A stretch of DNA of 64,000 nt from Pseudomonadota bacterium (lineage in GTDB: Bacteria > Desulfobacterota > Desulfovibrionia > Desulfovibrionales > Desulfomicrobiaceae). Positions 15,992-22,156 of this stretch are shown here, piece by piece; positions within the stretch are counted from its first letter, which is position 1; every line of letters begins with the position of its first letter. The position numbers and the translations under genes are program-made. The stretch spans positions 62,001 through 126,000 of the forward strand of contig JAHIQM010000016.1 in the NCBI GenBank assembly GCA_018902545.1. Reading direction: 5' to 3'. The notes beneath the pieces were generated by a model that saw nothing but the letters and a program-made list of their open reading frames with translations, was not told the DNA's origin and did not search any database.

Positions 15992-16189
15992 TCAAATGGG
16001 TTTAACGGCAGTCGTCCTGCCGGAATCTGATCACGACCGCAGGACTACAAACCAGAAAAAAATTCCCGGTTCTCGCTTTAATTTTGTCCCCGTACCGCGG
16101 CGTGGCGCCTCAGACCTGCGCTGGCCCGAAACCTGCTAAGATTTCCCAGAAGCCTTTGCTGCGACATGATTTTGACACGGAGATCGTAC

Positions 16190-17092
16190 ATGAGCATTCT
16201 TGACCCCATCCAGTTGATGACCCTCATGGGGACCACCCCCGAACGCAAGAGCCGCAGCGCGGCCGTGGCGGGAGGATTCCAGAACCACATGCGTCAGGCC
16301 TTGGGGGCCAGGGACTTGAACGCCTTGAACTCGAATCTGGGCGGGTCCGCCATGGAAAACAGCCTCATGCAGGACGCCCTGCACGGGCTGGCCTCCATCA
16401 TGCGCCATGAGCAGGCCGGGGCCCGAACCGGAACAGGAGGCGCGGCCGGAAAACGAGAAGACGTCGGCGCTCTGTCCGCGACCTTCGAATCGGGCACCCA
16501 AGGCGTGAACGCCATAGGCTACGACAAAAACGGTGGCACCTCTTACGGCACCTTTCAAATCGCGTCAAAGCCCGGCACCATGAAGAGATTCATCGAATAT
16601 CTGCACGACCGGGAACCCCAGTGGGCCGCCAAATTCAAGGCCGCCGGACCGGCGGATACGGGATCGACCAAGGGACGCATGCCCGAAGCCTGGCGCGGCA
16701 TCGCGGCCGAGGATCCCGAAAAATTCGGCCAACTGCAGCGGGATTTCATCGAAGCGACCCACTACGCCCCCGCCCGTGACAAGATTTTGGCAAGAACCGG
16801 TGTAGATATGGACACGATGCCGGCAGCTGCCCGCGAAGCCCTGTGGAGCACTTCGGTGCAACACGGACCGGCAGGCGCGGCAAAAATTTTCGGACGGACC
16901 ATCAAGTCCATCGGCACGGACCAGCCCGAACACGAATTCGCACAAAAGCTCATCGACAAGGTCTACGACAACCGCAAATCGCAGTTCGGTTCATCCACTG
17001 CCAGCGTCCAGGCCAGCGTAAAAAACCGCATGAACGTGGAGAAGGACATGGTCCTGGCCATGCTCAACAATCAGAACCAGTCCCTGGCCTGA
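16190..17092 (+). CDS. Putative peptidoglycan hydrolase, phage-type lysozyme-like
   Basis: A 300-aa protein. The N-terminal 90 residues are flexible (LDPIQLMTLMG, then GARTGTGGAAG). A catalytic-looking region around residues 95-200 has FESGTQGVNAIGYD, with a glutamate in a lysozyme-like position, and GGTSYGTFQIASKPGTM. Such segments occur in phage tail-associated and secretion-linked muramidases. ALWSTSVQHGPAGAAKIF near residue 220 fits a helical lysozyme core. There is no signal peptide. The start is ATG at 16190, with GGAG seven bases upstream. It is an orphan between unrelated genes, with no holin or tail gene close by. Rod-associated (FlgJ-like) or effector roles are alternatives. The enzyme class is inferred. 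Confidence 0.6.
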   Translation: MSILDPIQLMTLMGTTPERKSRSAAVAGGFQNHMRQALGARDLNALNSNLGGSAMENSLMQDALHGLASIMRHEQAGARTGTGGAAGKREDVGALSATFESGTQGVNAIGYDKNGGTSYGTFQIASKPGTMKRFIEYLHDREPQWAAKFKAAGPADTGSTKGRMPEAWRGIAAEDPEKFGQLQRDFIEATHYAPARDKILARTGVDMDTMPAAAREALWSTSVQHGPAGAAKIFGRTIKSIGTDQPEHEFAQKLIDKVYDNRKSQFGSSTASVQASVKNRMNVEKDMVLAMLNNQNQSLA

Positions 17093-17148: not shown

Positions 17149-17637
17149 TCAGCCGATATTCTTGGTGAAATAGAGAATGTCCTCGCCGGGGGCGTAATAA
17201 TCGCGAATGCACGCTTCCTGAACGAATCCGCAGGACAGATAGAATTTTTGCGTTGTTTCGTACTGCCTCCTGGACGAGGTCTCGGCGATGAGCTTGCCGC
17301 CGCCCAAACCCAGCAAACGACCTTCCACCTCCGCCAGCAACGTCTTCCCCATCCCCTGGCCGCGCATGGCCTCGTGAACCGCGATCCAGTAGAGGTCGAA
17401 GGTGCGGGCGGTACATGGCGTAGGACCATAGCAGGCATATCCCAGAATGCTTTTGTCCGGCGACTCGGCAAAGACGAAGAAATACCCGCTCAGGTCCCCC
17501 TTGGTCAGTCGCTCGCGAACCAGTTCCTCGGCCACGTCCACTTCCGGGTCTGAAAAAAAGCCCGTGGATGTCACGATGTCGCGCACGGCAAGGCAGTCAC
17601 TGGGCAGCACATGGTCCCGAAATACGATCTCAGACAT
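17149..17637 (-). CDS. GNAT-family N-acetyltransferase
   Basis: A 162-aa acetyl-CoA-dependent acetyltransferase. The cofactor loop RGQGMGKTLL (about residue 93) matches the R/QxxGxG/A motif, preceded by the LYWIAVHEAMRG strand. YETTQKFYLSCGFVQEA is the conserved C-terminal GNAT region. The gene starts inside the end of the upstream ATP-grasp gene (8-base overlap) and is the last of four coupled genes. That suggests it acetylates the product, or an amine intermediate, of the KamA/ATP-grasp pathway. It is clearly shorter than the known beta-lysine acetyltransferase AblB, and its sequence alone does not assign the substrate. Confidence 0.88.
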   Translation of the reverse strand: MSEIVFRDHVLPSDCLAVRDIVTSTGFFSDPEVDVAEELVRERLTKGDLSGYFFVFAESPDKSILGYACYGPTPCTARTFDLYWIAVHEAMRGQGMGKTLLAEVEGRLLGLGGGKLIAETSSRRQYETTQKFYLSCGFVQEACIRDYYAPGEDILYFTKNIG

Positions 17638-18655
17638 GACTGGCCGTCTCCAGGCGGCCCGCCCGCGCCAAGGCATCCAGTACAATACTTCTGACCACGA
17701 CGGCATGATCCAGGTTCGCCCGCAGTGCTGCGGCCGCGAAACCGGCATCGGGGGTGATGCACGGGTTGGGATTGACGTCGATGACGTAGGGCAGGCCGTC
17801 GTCTTCACCGACACGAAAGTCGATGCGGGCGTACCCTGCCAAACCGAAAAGATCCCAGCACGAAAGGGCGATCCGCCTCATGTTTGAGGCAAGGTCCTCT
17901 TCCCCGGCCAGATCAAAACTGCGCACCGAGGCGGCGTAGTCCGCGCTCTCCTGCTCCCATTTGGCCGCATAATGCAGGATGGCCGGGCCGGTCAGGCCAG
18001 GGTCGAAAACCATTTCCGCCACGGGCAGGACGCACACGCCCCCACCCGCTTCGGCCAGCAAGGCGACATTGAACTCCCTTCCCCGCACATACCCTTCGGC
18101 CACGCAGTCCCCGCCCATGCGCGAGGCCAGCCCCTGCATGGCGTCCAGCAACTCCTGCGGCTGCCGTGCCGCAACGACGCAGTCCGGACCGAGCCCCAGG
18201 GACGCGTCCTCGAAACGCGCCTTGATTATATAGGTGCTGGCACCGGGAAAAACCCCGCGCCGCAACTCTTCCATGGTCGCACCGGAAGGGACCGGCAGCC
18301 CGGCCGCGTGCAGCAGACGCCGGGCAAGAGCCTTGTCCCCGGACAGCGCCATGGAGCCCTCGTCCGCACCGGTGAAGGCAAGTCCGGCCTTGCGGAAAAG
18401 GGCCGGAGCCACACACGCAAGACTGGCCAGACCGCTCCAGGATTCAACCAGATTGAAGACGACATCGGGGCGGATCTGCGCAAGTTCGGCTTCAAGCACC
18501 GAAGGGTCGCGGCCAAAAACATGTTCGGAGGCGCGCCAGCCGCACAGGGCCAGGCTTTGCGCGACGCTGCGTGCCTGTCGCACCGTATCGAGCGCGTCGG
18601 GAGAAGCGCCGCCGGGAACGTCTTCGCGCACCACCGCCACATGCAGAACACTCAT
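17630..18655 (-). CDS. ATP-grasp carboxylate-amine ligase (Ddl-like), second of two
   Basis: A 341-aa ATP-grasp enzyme related to D-alanine-D-alanine ligase. The N-terminal part has RPDVVFNLVESWSG. ALSGDKALARRLL (about residue 103) begins the ATP-binding region. TYIIKARFEDASLG holds the adenine/phosphate lysine. The metal-binding end is YARIDFRVGEDDGLPYVIDVNPNPCI, with DVNPNP in place of the Ddl E-x-N-T. It joins a carboxylate to an amine with ATP hydrolysis. It overlaps the first ATP-grasp gene by four bases and GNAT by eight. The two ligases are too different to be a simple duplication, so they probably perform consecutive steps. Confidence 0.87.
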   Translation of the reverse strand: MSVLHVAVVREDVPGGASPDALDTVRQARSVAQSLALCGWRASEHVFGRDPSVLEAELAQIRPDVVFNLVESWSGLASLACVAPALFRKAGLAFTGADEGSMALSGDKALARRLLHAAGLPVPSGATMEELRRGVFPGASTYIIKARFEDASLGLGPDCVVAARQPQELLDAMQGLASRMGGDCVAEGYVRGREFNVALLAEAGGGVCVLPVAEMVFDPGLTGPAILHYAAKWEQESADYAASVRSFDLAGEEDLASNMRRIALSCWDLFGLAGYARIDFRVGEDDGLPYVIDVNPNPCITPDAGFAAAALRANLDHAVVVRSIVLDALARAGRLETASHV

Positions 18656-19650
18656 GAATGCCTTCCTGCAACCCGCTCCGCAGCCCTTTGCATGGCCGAA
18701 TTCATGATCGCCGCGATAAGCTCGTCATACCCAAGCCCGATCTTGCCGCACAGAATGGGCAGGTCGGAACTCTCCGGATTGAGCCCGGCCAGGGGGTTGA
18801 CCTCGATGAAACGGGCCTGCCCCTGTGCGTCCAGACGCACGTCGATTCGGCCTGCGTCCAGGCAACCCAGAGCCTCCCAGGCAGCGCGGGCGACCTCGGC
18901 GGCCTGCGCGGCGCGGTCGTCGTCGGCCAGTTCATAGAGCGCCCGCTCACGCCACTCCTGCTTGTTGGCGTAAGTGTAGGCACAGGCGTCGCCACGGGCG
19001 GTGGAGAGCACCTCCATGACCCCCAGCACCCGGCAATTCCGTCCGCTACCCAAAAGACCCACGGTGAACTCCCGGCCCGGGAGGAACGTCTCCACCAACG
19101 CAGGCTGGCGGAACGTGTTCAAAACATGGGCGCAGATCTCCCGCAATTCCTGCCGGTCCCTGACCAGCGACTTCTCACTCACGCCCTTGCTCGACCCTTC
19201 GGCCACCGGTTTGACAAAGAGAGGAAACGGCAGCTCAACACCGTCGGCCTCCTCCGCAGCGTTCACGATCCTGAAATCGGCCGTGGGCACATCGTGCGCC
19301 CGCAGCACCGCGTTGGTCCAGCCCTTGTGCAGGCACAGGGCCAGCACTTCAGGTCCGGAGAAGGTGTAAGGAATGTCCCAGGCGTCGAGCAGGGCCGGAA
19401 CCTGGGCCTCGCGCGCCAGGCCGCGCATGCCTTCGGCAAAATTAAAAACCATGTCCCAGCGCCGTCCATCGGCCAGGGCGCGCGCCAGCGGCATCACGCC
19501 GCCGACCAGTTCCACTTCGTGGCCCTGAGACAGGAGCGCCTGCCGGATGGCCTCGACGGTGACGGGGCTGTCCAGCTCCGCCACCTCGTCCTTACCGTAT
19601 CCCGCGTCCAGATATTCCTGCTGCAGGTCGAAGGTCATGCCAACGAGCAC
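18652..19650 (-). CDS. ATP-grasp carboxylate-amine ligase (Ddl-like), first of two
   Basis: A 332-aa Ddl-like ligase. DMVFNFAEGMRGLAREAQ (about residue 66) matches the Ddl N-terminal strand-loop. YTFSGPEVLALCLHKGWTNAVL is the substrate/ATP region. PLFVKPVAEGSSKGVSE carries the ATP-grasp lysine and glycine loop. FIEVNPLAGLNPESSDLP is the metal-binding end, close to the Ddl EVNTMPG...SxxP. It starts with GTG at 19650, 16 bases inside the kamA gene. It is probably not the housekeeping Ddl, since no mur genes are near and it is coupled to an aminomutase. Substrates are predicted to include a beta-amino acid. Confidence 0.88.
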   Translation of the reverse strand: MLVGMTFDLQQEYLDAGYGKDEVAELDSPVTVEAIRQALLSQGHEVELVGGVMPLARALADGRRWDMVFNFAEGMRGLAREAQVPALLDAWDIPYTFSGPEVLALCLHKGWTNAVLRAHDVPTADFRIVNAAEEADGVELPFPLFVKPVAEGSSKGVSEKSLVRDRQELREICAHVLNTFRQPALVETFLPGREFTVGLLGSGRNCRVLGVMEVLSTARGDACAYTYANKQEWRERALYELADDDRAAQAAEVARAAWEALGCLDAGRIDVRLDAQGQARFIEVNPLAGLNPESSDLPILCGKIGLGYDELIAAIMNSAMQRAAERVAGRHS

Positions 19651-20864
19651 GGAGCCTCCCCAGGTTGATCAGGATAATGGAAGATCCGGTTCTCGTAATT
19701 GCGCAGCACCACGCCCTGTTCGTCGCGGCCCTGGAAATAGTCTGGCTGCAACGGCACCTTGCCCCCGCCGCCGGGAGCGTCGATGACATAGGTCGGAATG
19801 CAGTAGCCCGAGGTATGTCCGCGCAGCCCCCGAATGATGGAAAGCCCCTTGTCCACTGGGGTGCGGAAATGGCTTGATCCGGGAATGGGGTCGCACTGGT
19901 AAAGGTAATAGGGGCGGACGCGATTACGGATCAGGCCGTGCATGAGCTTTTTCATGGTCGCCACGTCGTCGTTGACGCCAGAAAGCAGCACGGTCTGGCT
20001 GCCGAGCGGGATGCCCCCGTCGGCCAGACGGTTGCAGGCCAGAGCCGTATCCGGGGTGATCTCGTCGGGATGAGTGAAATGCAGGCTGATGAACAGCGGA
20101 TGATAGCGACGCAACATGCGCACCAGCTTCGGGGTTATACGCTGGGGCAGCACGGCCGGAACCTTGGACCCGATGCGGATGATCTCCACATGGGGGATGG
20201 CGCGCAGCTGGGACAAGAGCCACTCGATCTTCATGTCCGGCAGGGTCAGGGGGTCGCCGCCGGAGAGCAATACGTCGCGCACCTCGTCGTGCTCGCGGAT
20301 GTAGTCCAGGGCGACCTGCCAGCTACGCATGTCGGAGCGGTGCCCGGCCTTGCCGACCAGCCTGGAGCGCGTGCAGTAGCGGCAATAGGTCGAACAGAAC
20401 TCCGTGACCAGAAAAAGCGCCCGGTCCGGATAGCGGTGCACGATGCCGGGCACGGGGCTGTGTCCCTCCTCCCCGAGCGGGTCGGACTCCTCGAAAGGCA
20501 GGATCAACGTCTCGCGGACATCGGGCAGGATGCAGCGGCGCAAACTCTCGCTGCGGGAGGCGACCCAAAGATAATACGGCGTGGCCGCAACGGGCAGACA
20601 GCGTCCGTTCTTCTCGAACCCCAGCGCATCCACGCCAAGAATTTTGGCCATGGCCGGGGCGGACGTCACGCGATGCTTGAGCTGCCAGCGCCAGTTGTCC
20701 CAGTCCTTTTGCACGGCACCGGGGAAATGGGCGTTCATGAAGTTTTTGCGATGGGCCCAGATATTGAGCTCAAAGTCTTCGGAAAGTGAGGGTATAGAGG
20801 GAGGTTCGGCCAGCTCCGGGCTTAATTCTGAAGGCTGTGTCGTAACAATTTCGACAACGTCCAT
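19635..20864 (-). CDS. kamA: Lysine 2,3-aminomutase-family radical SAM enzyme
   Basis: A 409-aa PLP- and SAM-dependent aminomutase. The radical SAM cluster ligands are Cys157, Cys161 and Cys164 (CxxxCxxC), the SAM-binding SGGDPL is near residue 201, and the PLP lysine is Lys339 in FRTPVDKG. The two aspartates that in lysine 2,3-aminomutase hold the substrate's epsilon-amino group appear conserved: Asp282 in LADGG and Asp325 in YQCD. Glutamate-type enzymes differ there, so L-lysine to beta-lysine is the favoured reaction. TSGYCIPTYVIDAPGGGGK near the C-terminus is diagnostic for the family. It leads a four-gene operon whose genes all overlap, linking it to two ATP-grasp ligases and a GNAT. A TTGACA lies upstream without a clear -10. 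Confidence 0.92.
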   Translation of the reverse strand: MDVVEIVTTQPSELSPELAEPPSIPSLSEDFELNIWAHRKNFMNAHFPGAVQKDWDNWRWQLKHRVTSAPAMAKILGVDALGFEKNGRCLPVAATPYYLWVASRSESLRRCILPDVRETLILPFEESDPLGEEGHSPVPGIVHRYPDRALFLVTEFCSTYCRYCTRSRLVGKAGHRSDMRSWQVALDYIREHDEVRDVLLSGGDPLTLPDMKIEWLLSQLRAIPHVEIIRIGSKVPAVLPQRITPKLVRMLRRYHPLFISLHFTHPDEITPDTALACNRLADGGIPLGSQTVLLSGVNDDVATMKKLMHGLIRNRVRPYYLYQCDPIPGSSHFRTPVDKGLSIIRGLRGHTSGYCIPTYVIDAPGGGGKVPLQPDYFQGRDEQGVVLRNYENRIFHYPDQPGEAPCSLA

Positions 20865-21181: not shown

Positions 21182-22156
21182 TTATTCGGGCTTTGAGGAC
21201 ACAATGCGCTTGTAGGTATCAAGCAGTTCGACAAAGGCGTCATGGTCCCCGCCCTTGTCCGGGTGCATGGACATGGCCTTCTTGCGGAAAACCCGCGCGA
21301 ACTCGCGCCGGGTCATGCTCCTGATCTCGGACATAGTCATGCCAAAGAGATCCCGCACCCGCTCCGGGGCGACAGGTTTAGGGCGCGGTCGGTGGCGGCG
21401 GAAATCATTCATGAAATCCTGAAAGATCCGTTCGAAGCCACCTGCCGCTGCGAACTCGAAATCATAATGCATGCACGCGTAGCGCCTCAGATACGCATGA
21501 ACGCCTCTGGGCAGACCGAACGCGAAGAGGGCGTCATCATACAGAAGGCAGAATTCGTGCATGAAGGCCTCGTCCATCTGCGCCGGATCCAGGGCTTCGG
21601 GCATGGTCCGGGCCGTGAGTTTGGCGAAATGGCGCTGCAGATTGAACGCGGCGTGGACGTAGTGCCGCGCTTCATCGAGGGACAGGGAGCGCTCCATGCG
21701 CAGGAAGAGTTGCTCGATCTCGTCCCGGCTCTTGCCCAGGAGCCGCAAAAAAAGCTTGGAGCTGACCTCGTCGATGCGGCTCAGGTTCACTTCGCCCGAA
21801 CGCAGGTATGCCATGCGCCTGCGATCAAACGGGTGCAGCGACCGGATGGCGTCTTCCTGGGTGCGAGTCAGCACTGTCCGCGCCCACCTGCCGCCTCTGT
21901 CCGCCCTGTCCCTGAAGCCCTGAGGCGCGAACGGGGCAAACGCCGCGTCGAGGGCATCCATGTCCAGATCCAGAACAGCAAGCCGTTCAAGCAATTCCTC
22001 GGCATAGGATATCCCGAAGCGGCCGAAATGGACCAGACGGCCAGGGTCATCGCCAAGATCTGCCAGCATCTCGAATCCGAACCCGCCGTCCATGGGCACC
22101 GAACGCCGCAGTTCATAACGCACGCTCCGCCCGTCCCTGAGTACCGCTACGTACAT
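21182..22156 (-). CDS. Unknown protein with C-terminal J domain
   Basis: A 324-aa soluble protein. Residues 1-240 show no family I recognise; they are rich in charged helices and include RRMAYLRSGEVNLSRIDEVSSKLF. The last 60 residues form a DnaJ-type J domain: MTRREFARVFRKKAMSMHPDKGGDHDAFVELLDTYK, with the HPD tripeptide needed to stimulate DnaK. A J domain at the C-terminus is the reverse of classical DnaJ and suggests a co-chaperone for a specific client bound by the N-terminal part. The start codon follows the pyrC stop directly (TGATATG), so they are co-transcribed. Confidence 0.82.
   Translation of the reverse strand: MYVAVLRDGRSVRYELRRSVPMDGGFGFEMLADLGDDPGRLVHFGRFGISYAEELLERLAVLDLDMDALDAAFAPFAPQGFRDRADRGGRWARTVLTRTQEDAIRSLHPFDRRRMAYLRSGEVNLSRIDEVSSKLFLRLLGKSRDEIEQLFLRMERSLSLDEARHYVHAAFNLQRHFAKLTARTMPEALDPAQMDEAFMHEFCLLYDDALFAFGLPRGVHAYLRRYACMHYDFEFAAAGGFERIFQDFMNDFRRHRPRPKPVAPERVRDLFGMTMSEIRSMTRREFARVFRKKAMSMHPDKGGDHDAFVELLDTYKRIVSSKPE

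Follow-up and report, generated by a model that had tools for sequence, protein, structure and literature searches.

A conserved cassette of kamA, two ATP-grasp ligase genes and a GNAT gene in Desulfomicrobiaceae and beyond, with a probable role in making an acetylated beta-lysine amide

The window that we analysed, a stretch of 64,000 nucleotides from a Desulfomicrobiaceae genome (GenBank assembly GCA_018902545.1, contig JAHIQM010000016.1, positions 62,001 to 126,000), holds on its minus strand a cassette of four overlapping genes for an aminomutase, two ATP-grasp ligases and an acetyltransferase. The genome is 3.7 Mb in length and its nearest named relatives are Desulfomicrobium. The four genes, in the order in which they are read, are:

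20864-19635, minus strand: KamA, a lysine-type aminomutase with radical S-adenosylmethionine (SAM) and pyridoxal phosphate (PLP) chemistry, whose clade is separate from that of AblA (409 amino acids, ATG start)
19650-18652, minus strand: ATPg1, the first ATP-grasp ligase, with the D-Ala-D-Ala ligase fold (332 amino acids, GTG start)
18655-17630, minus strand: ATPg2, the second ATP-grasp ligase, with the D-Ala-D-Ala ligase fold (341 amino acids, ATG start)
17637-17149, minus strand: GNAT acetyltransferase of the PDB 2r7h family (162 amino acids, ATG start)

These coordinates bear out the initial annotation of this DNA, which had described the same genes in the same order with overlaps of 16, 4 and 8 bases, and because the reading frames overlap the four genes are probably transcribed together. 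A search for a sigma-70 promoter upstream of kamA gave no match on the minus strand and one on the plus strand (0.7 expected), and no promoter or terminator was found that would prove co-transcription of the cassette.

Is the arrangement peculiar to this genome? The initial annotation had proposed a search of other genomes for the four-gene order, and that order proved to be conserved, with all four genes present in it at 18 of 21 loci from the window's own genome, its genus and its order (L024-L044); the exceptions are one locus with kamA and ATPg1 only (L035) and two that run into contig ends (L043, L044). Seven further loci (L045-L051) were left out of the 21, five being weak ATPg1-like matches (about 28-30% identity), one a split-contig half and one a repeat view of genome G025. 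In a sample of 297 genomes of the phylum, where we call an ATPg2 match strong at E<=1.7e-60 and a KamA match strong at E<=3.3e-146, there are among the matches listed 105 strong ATPg2 copies in 103 genomes, and strong KamA in 113 genomes, 96 of which hold both (Fisher p 9e-51; neither this nor any other co-occurrence statistic given here is corrected for relatedness). KamA lies upstream within 3 kb and on the same strand in 72 of the 105 ATPg2 copies, and the gap between the two is 0.9-1.5 kb, the size of ATPg1, in 56 of these, below 400 bases in 10, 421 bases in one and above 1.5 kb in five; for the other 33 copies KamA is downstream in four, a strong KamA is found elsewhere in the genome in 22, and there is none in seven. 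That the arrangement is conserved on both of these scales leads us to exclude chance linkage. We also counted neighbours within 4.5 kb of ATPg2, on all open reading frames (ORFs), in 68 neighbourhoods, some of them cut by contig ends and a few from genomes seen twice: KamA was present in 42, ATPg1 in 60, GNAT in 48 and a further partner, which we call X, in 10, with KamA, ATPg1 and GNAT together in 35. No neighbour common to all cassettes was seen beyond these named partners. In Omnitrophota an ATPg1 match was found in 102 of 117 genomes, and all 30 of the 30 best loci, which we examined, adjoin KamA.

The window KamA has the radical-SAM cysteines C157, C161 and C164, together with R166 and the PLP lysine K369; the three cysteines and K369, which the initial annotation had reported as kept, are invariant in all 64 KamAs that we aligned. 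We take D293 and D330 of PDB 2a5h to be the substrate aspartates of lysine 2,3-aminomutase and K337 to be its PLP lysine; in the alignment they correspond to D325, D362 and K369 of the window KamA, and Asp is found at both 325 and 362 in 63 of the 64 sequences. The initial annotation had assigned the substrate aspartates to positions 282 and 325, of which D325 stands, while the true partner of D325 is D362: the counterpart of position 282 in 2a5h is D250, just 50 of the 64 KamAs have Asp at 282, and the alignment and this variability together rule out D282 as a substrate aspartate. Its assignment of the enzyme to the lysine type is nevertheless supported by D325 and D362. The sole exception to the Asp/Asp pair, L022, has Lys/Asn and reaches 675.3 bits on the glutamate 2,3-aminomutase model TIGR04368 (cut-off 650), so providing an internal control; with its Asp/Asp pair and 404.9 bits on the same model, the window KamA is ruled out as a glutamate-specific enzyme. 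We infer that the window KamA makes beta-lysine.

In the tree 37 cassette KamAs form one clade (100/100), apart from L017, L102 and L121. The L017 enzyme, whose surroundings we take to be a lysine-fermentation gene set, has the Asp/Asp pair too and at 596.1 bits exceeds the cut-off of the lysine 2,3-aminomutase (AblA) model TIGR03820. The remaining KamAs labelled "operon", a label given to every KamA outside the other groups and hence also to L134, which has no ligase in its stretch, fall elsewhere, and the label requires at least three changes on the tree. This scatter leads to the conclusion that KamA and the ligases were joined repeatedly, or that their linkage was lost and then regained; KamAs from different branches of the tree are linked to ligases.

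Confident structure predictions (predicted local distance difference test, pLDDT, 95.5 for ATPg1 and 95.9 for ATPg2) match both ligases to D-Ala-D-Ala ligase (Ddl): against Pseudomonas aeruginosa DdlB (8evy) the ATPg1 model has a Z of 32.8 and a root-mean-square deviation of 2.5 over 294 aligned residues, and the ATPg2 model a Z of 33.3 and a deviation of 2.8 over 298. They share this fold and, as had been claimed for them, differ from each other, and on the Ddl model TIGR01205 they reach 111.2 and 65.7 bits, respectively, both under the cut-off of 245.65. With Ddl numbering derived by aligning sequences rather than from a model with bound ligand, ATPg1 retains the Ddl equivalents E25 (E15 in Ddl; 47 of 48 sequences), R268 (R255; 48 of 48) and S295 (S281; 46 of 48), and ATPg2 retains R277, D279 and N295, the catalytic Arg and metal-site residues, in 46 of 46. 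At the position of Ddl S281, which we assume contributes to binding of the carboxylate on the second, acceptor substrate, ATPg2 has Ala in 33 and Ser in 13 of its 46 sequences, and because Ala predominates there, the alignment leans towards an ATPg2 acceptor that may have a different, perhaps absent, carboxylate. No ATPg1 match was found at E<=1e-20 in four of 16 genomes of the genus (G004, G005, G010, G011), and ATPg1 is therefore not the essential wall enzyme. The genes for ATPg2 and GNAT are fused in six of the 68 neighbourhoods (L096, L101, L109, L110, L139, L144). At two loci (L145:4634-5557 and L119:2091-3050) ATPg1 is preceded by an extra ATP-grasp-like gene that matches RimK or ATPgrasp_ST weakly, in one case after an arginine decarboxylase gene and in the other after kamA.

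The closest solved relative of the GNAT is PDB 2r7h (E 8.7e-58), presumably from a Desulfovibrio, whose name "putative D-alanine N-acetyltransferase" rests on annotation; we know of no tested function for it. The AblB model TIGR03827 gave no match to the window GNAT at E<=1e-3. The GNAT probably caps an amine. A methyltransferase follows ATPg2 in the place of the GNAT at five loci (L151, L152, L155 and L157 by eye, L156 by Pfam match), and in several of L151-L157 glycosyltransferase-like genes, again recognised by eye, come after that methyltransferase.

Partner X, about 590 amino acids long, combines a GNAT-like domain at its N-terminus with a histone-deacetylase domain, and the solved structures closest to the latter are those of acetylpolyamine amidohydrolases. 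The columns invariant among 11 X proteins include candidate metal-site and His-His residues, at what we take to be the positions of these residues in the histone-deacetylase fold. In some copies of the cassette X lies between ATPg2 and GNAT or nearby, and in L116 it is fused to the GNAT. Full-length X was found in 29 of the 297 genomes, all of them among the 103 with strong ATPg2 (Fisher p 2.4e-15, likewise uncorrected), and within 3 kb of ATPg2 in 12 of the 29; a thirtieth match, in G305, is partial and was dropped. In G331 an X gene has a KamA match on each side, on the same strand (G331:C244:57-4397). The genome of the window (G000) has X at a distance from the cassette:

G000:C10:70523-72262 (L125:5521-7263): X, unlinked to the cassette, 57% identical to the X of L093

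Beside it is an ORF that by eye resembles a Na/Pi cotransporter. The same genome also carries a classical pathway for acetyl-beta-lysine:

G000:C1:56291-58412 (L102:6277-7587 and the next gene): canonical ablA-ablB pair

The ablA gene of this pair (L102:6277-7587) scores 778.9 bits on the lysine model, and the ablB gene directly after it (G000:C1:57612-58412) 332 bits against a cut-off of 205.1. Since the classical route is already present, the window KamA comes in addition to it and is linked with other enzymes. Across the phylum sample ablB was found in 10 of 297 genomes, compared with 103 for strong ATPg2; three of the 10 ablB genomes belong to the ATPg2 set, and for want of association we rejected ablB as a marker of the cassette.

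Which genes accompany the ligases where kamA does not? We viewed 20 of the 22 ATPg2 copies that are unlinked to kamA (L088, L103, L105, L117 and L145-L160; those of G138 and G197:C105 fell outside the view), and in 14 of the 20, from six families, the ligases follow an arginine decarboxylase gene. Twelve of those 14 have a labelled agmatinase and eight a deoxyhypusine-synthase-like gene (two of them short or weak); of the other six copies, two end with their contigs on that side (L149, L155) and four have other genes there (L088, L117, L159, L160). Arginine decarboxylase was found in 66 of the 103 ATPg2 genomes and in 73 of the 194 others, and it was not found in the window's genome or in 36 others of the 103, so we rejected it as a universal partner. 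In G017, of the same family as the window's genome, kamA and ATPg1 are followed by a PotABCD-like importer, of which the ATPase and two permeases pass their cut-offs and the binding protein falls below its own (364.4 against 582 bits); no ATPg2 or GNAT is seen at that locus. The window itself has a PotABCD-like polyamine-type ABC transporter at 12362-8479 on the minus strand, 4.8 kb beyond the GNAT, for which Pot proteins are the best-named matches, all of them below cut-offs.

From the genes, conservation, co-occurrence, residues and predicted folds that we observed, we infer a set of reactions, substrates and a product. We think it probable, while well short of certain, that the cassette directs biosynthesis of a small cationic acetylated beta-lysine amide, with either an amino acid or a polyamine as acceptor. 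KamA would convert L-lysine to beta-lysine; ATPg1 and ATPg2 would each use ATP to turn a carboxylate into an acyl phosphate and couple this to an amine, which would make beta-lysine part of a two- or three-part amide, the acceptor in the last ligation being an amino acid or a polyamine; the GNAT would acetylate a free amine; and X, where present, would remove an acetyl group, either in recycling of the product or in deprotection of an intermediate. Much of what the initial annotation had put forward is retained here, namely the type of the aminomutase, the two ligases, the GNAT and their linkage, with which the ATPg2-GNAT fusions agree; D282 is not, and the GNAT counts below speak against an acetyl cap common to all cassettes.

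Several observations weigh against this proposal. The window KamA matches the KamA subfamily and lies below the cut-off of every curated equivalog model, the best being AblA TIGR03820 at 444.6 bits against 525.4, and it has Asp at the position of the zinc cysteine (C268 equivalent) of canonical enzymes, a position next to the GVND motif that is Cys in L017, L102 and L121 only of the 64 KamAs. Seventeen genomes have strong KamA and no strong ATPg2, six of them with ablB. No GNAT lies within 4.5 kb of ATPg2 in 20 of the 68 neighbourhoods, some of which are cut by contig ends, and at E<=1e-15, in a search that had no positive control, the GNAT family was not found in six Omnitrophota genomes, or likewise in two genomes from outside Omnitrophota. 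The Omnitrophota loci carry one or two ATPg1-like ligases only, and X was not found at E<=1e-80 in 74 of the 103 ATPg2 genomes.

What, then, would be the acceptor of the last bond? The initial annotation envisaged an acetylated peptide with beta-lysine, by analogy to dipeptide osmolytes. Spelled out, this would be an N-acetylated di- or tripeptide of beta-lysine, acting as a compatible solute and made in the manner of N-acetylglutaminylglutamine amide (NAGGN). This reading is favoured by the acceptor-carboxylate Ser that ATPg1 keeps from Ddl and by the NAGGN precedent, in which the Ngg protein, in an excerpt of PMC8070244, performs both acetylation and peptide-bond formation, matching the ATPg2-GNAT fusions; in addition, eight of the 10 genomes with ectoine synthase (ectC) are in the ATPg2 set (p=0.004, relatedness ignored). 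However, ATPg2 has mostly Ala in place of that Ser, 14 of the 20 unlinked copies viewed stand with polyamine genes, no salt-related neighbour stood out, and the ectC genomes are concentrated in few families. The initial annotation had also suggested a look for salt- or stress-related neighbours. The weak ectC association is the one salt hint, sigma-54 activators often adjoin the cassette, and a stress role for the product is a guess; the peptide solute, in our judgement, is possible and rather doubtful. We regard a polyamine acceptor as at least as open as an amino acid for the last bond, because the classical ablAB pair is already present, because X is a partner, and because the unlinked copies lie in a polyamine context; the acceptor site of ATPg2 favours it too, as do X and the neighbouring polyamine genes. 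It is conceivable, and we offer it tentatively, that the product is an acetylated beta-lysyl-polyamine conjugate of a new metabolite class, in which KamA would give beta-lysine, the amine would be putrescine or homospermidine, X would reverse the acetylation, and the amine would come from arginine decarboxylase-agmatinase-homospermidine-synthase-like genes such as precede these ligases in other lineages. If this were true, the cation would be present in much of the phylum.

Other explanations dispense with a small amide of this kind altogether. Were the ligases ordinary D-Ala-D-Ala ligases, with kamA beside them by accident, Ddl would be expected as the best match of both among named proteins and among solved structures, as is the case; yet both fall far short of the TIGR01205 cut-off, four genomes of the genus give no ATPg1 match, so that it is not essential to the wall, and the kamA linkage recurs across many families and in Omnitrophota, on which grounds we reject ordinary wall ligases as a most improbable reading. 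Equally improbable, in our estimate, is that the cassette places beta-lysine on a protein such as elongation factor P (EF-P), as EpmA and EpmB do. KamA is related to EpmB and deoxyhypusine-synthase-like genes occur in some unlinked clusters, but the window KamA has 218.4 bits on the EpmB model TIGR03821 against a cut-off of 369.3, Ddl-fold ligases are known to act on small molecules, and inspection by eye, with no model run for either, showed no EF-P or EpmA gene next to the cassette. Beta-lysine also occurs in antibiotics such as streptothricin and viomycin, which would suit a secreted natural product with a beta-lysine part. We consider such a product very unlikely, given that strong ATPg2 in more than a hundred of the 297 genomes better fits a housekeeping role and that neighbouring genes, read by eye and with no cluster tool run, included no evident non-ribosomal peptide synthetase, polyketide synthase or exporter.

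The acetylated beta-lysine amide that we favour would make the cassette a variant of small-amide biosynthesis such as ablAB and NAGGN. A Pelobacter genome paper (PMC3543383) proposes N-epsilon-acetyl-beta-lysine, made by AblA and AblB, as a salt osmolyte in that organism. The cassette resembles that route in its lysine 2,3-aminomutase chemistry followed by acetylation and differs from it in the two ligases in between, in a GNAT without an AblB match and in the Asp at the zinc cysteine position of KamA. It shares with AsnO/Ngg the ligation of a small amide and its acetylation, to which the ATPg2-GNAT fusions may be compared, and Ngg presumably holds an ATP-grasp domain; however, the cassette would use beta-lysine, not glutamine, and has two separate Ddl-type ligases, and no glutamine amidotransferase of the AsnO type was noticed among its neighbours, for which no model was run. 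The ligases have the fold and the ATP and metal-site residues of Ddl, and differ from it in scores below cut-off, in an acceptor site that is altered in most ATPg2 and in their kamA linkage; X resembles acetylpolyamine amidohydrolases in its C-terminal domain and adds the N-terminal GNAT-like domain; and PDB 2r7h and the GNAT are of the same family.

The enzyme families are known, and among the open PubMed Central papers listed for us, judged mostly by titles and abstract openings, their combination is not named and no description of this gene set was found, although earlier notice of it is possible. If the proposal is true, an unrecognised beta-lysine pathway is present in about one third of the sampled phylum genomes and in at least 30 of the 117 sampled Omnitrophota, and its ligase is about ten times as common in the phylum sample as ablB of the textbook route. 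Such a cassette is easily overlooked because automatic annotation would name a D-alanine ligase, an aminomutase, an acetyltransferase and a deacetylase, and it would offer a five-gene target for a new metabolite and for the study of stress tolerance in sulfate reducers and related bacteria.

Among the genes around the cassettes, NtrC-type sigma-54 activators adjoin it at L083, where the assignment is by Pfam match, and similar proteins do so at 12 more loci (L090, L095, L097, L106, L107, L117, L128-L132, L138). Some of these loci also have a small protein of about 100 amino acids with a "G.V.P..W" motif seen by eye, and one such protein that was tested had no Pfam match. In the window a convergent gene at 16166-17092 on the plus strand matches PF21277 (VgrG3-like C-terminal domain). 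The gene upstream of kamA, at 21182-22156 on the minus strand, has a C-terminal J-domain-like stretch by eye and no Pfam match at E<=1e-3. Genome G009 (L133) has, by eye, a gene similar to the former beside the operon and a counterpart of the latter at the same place.

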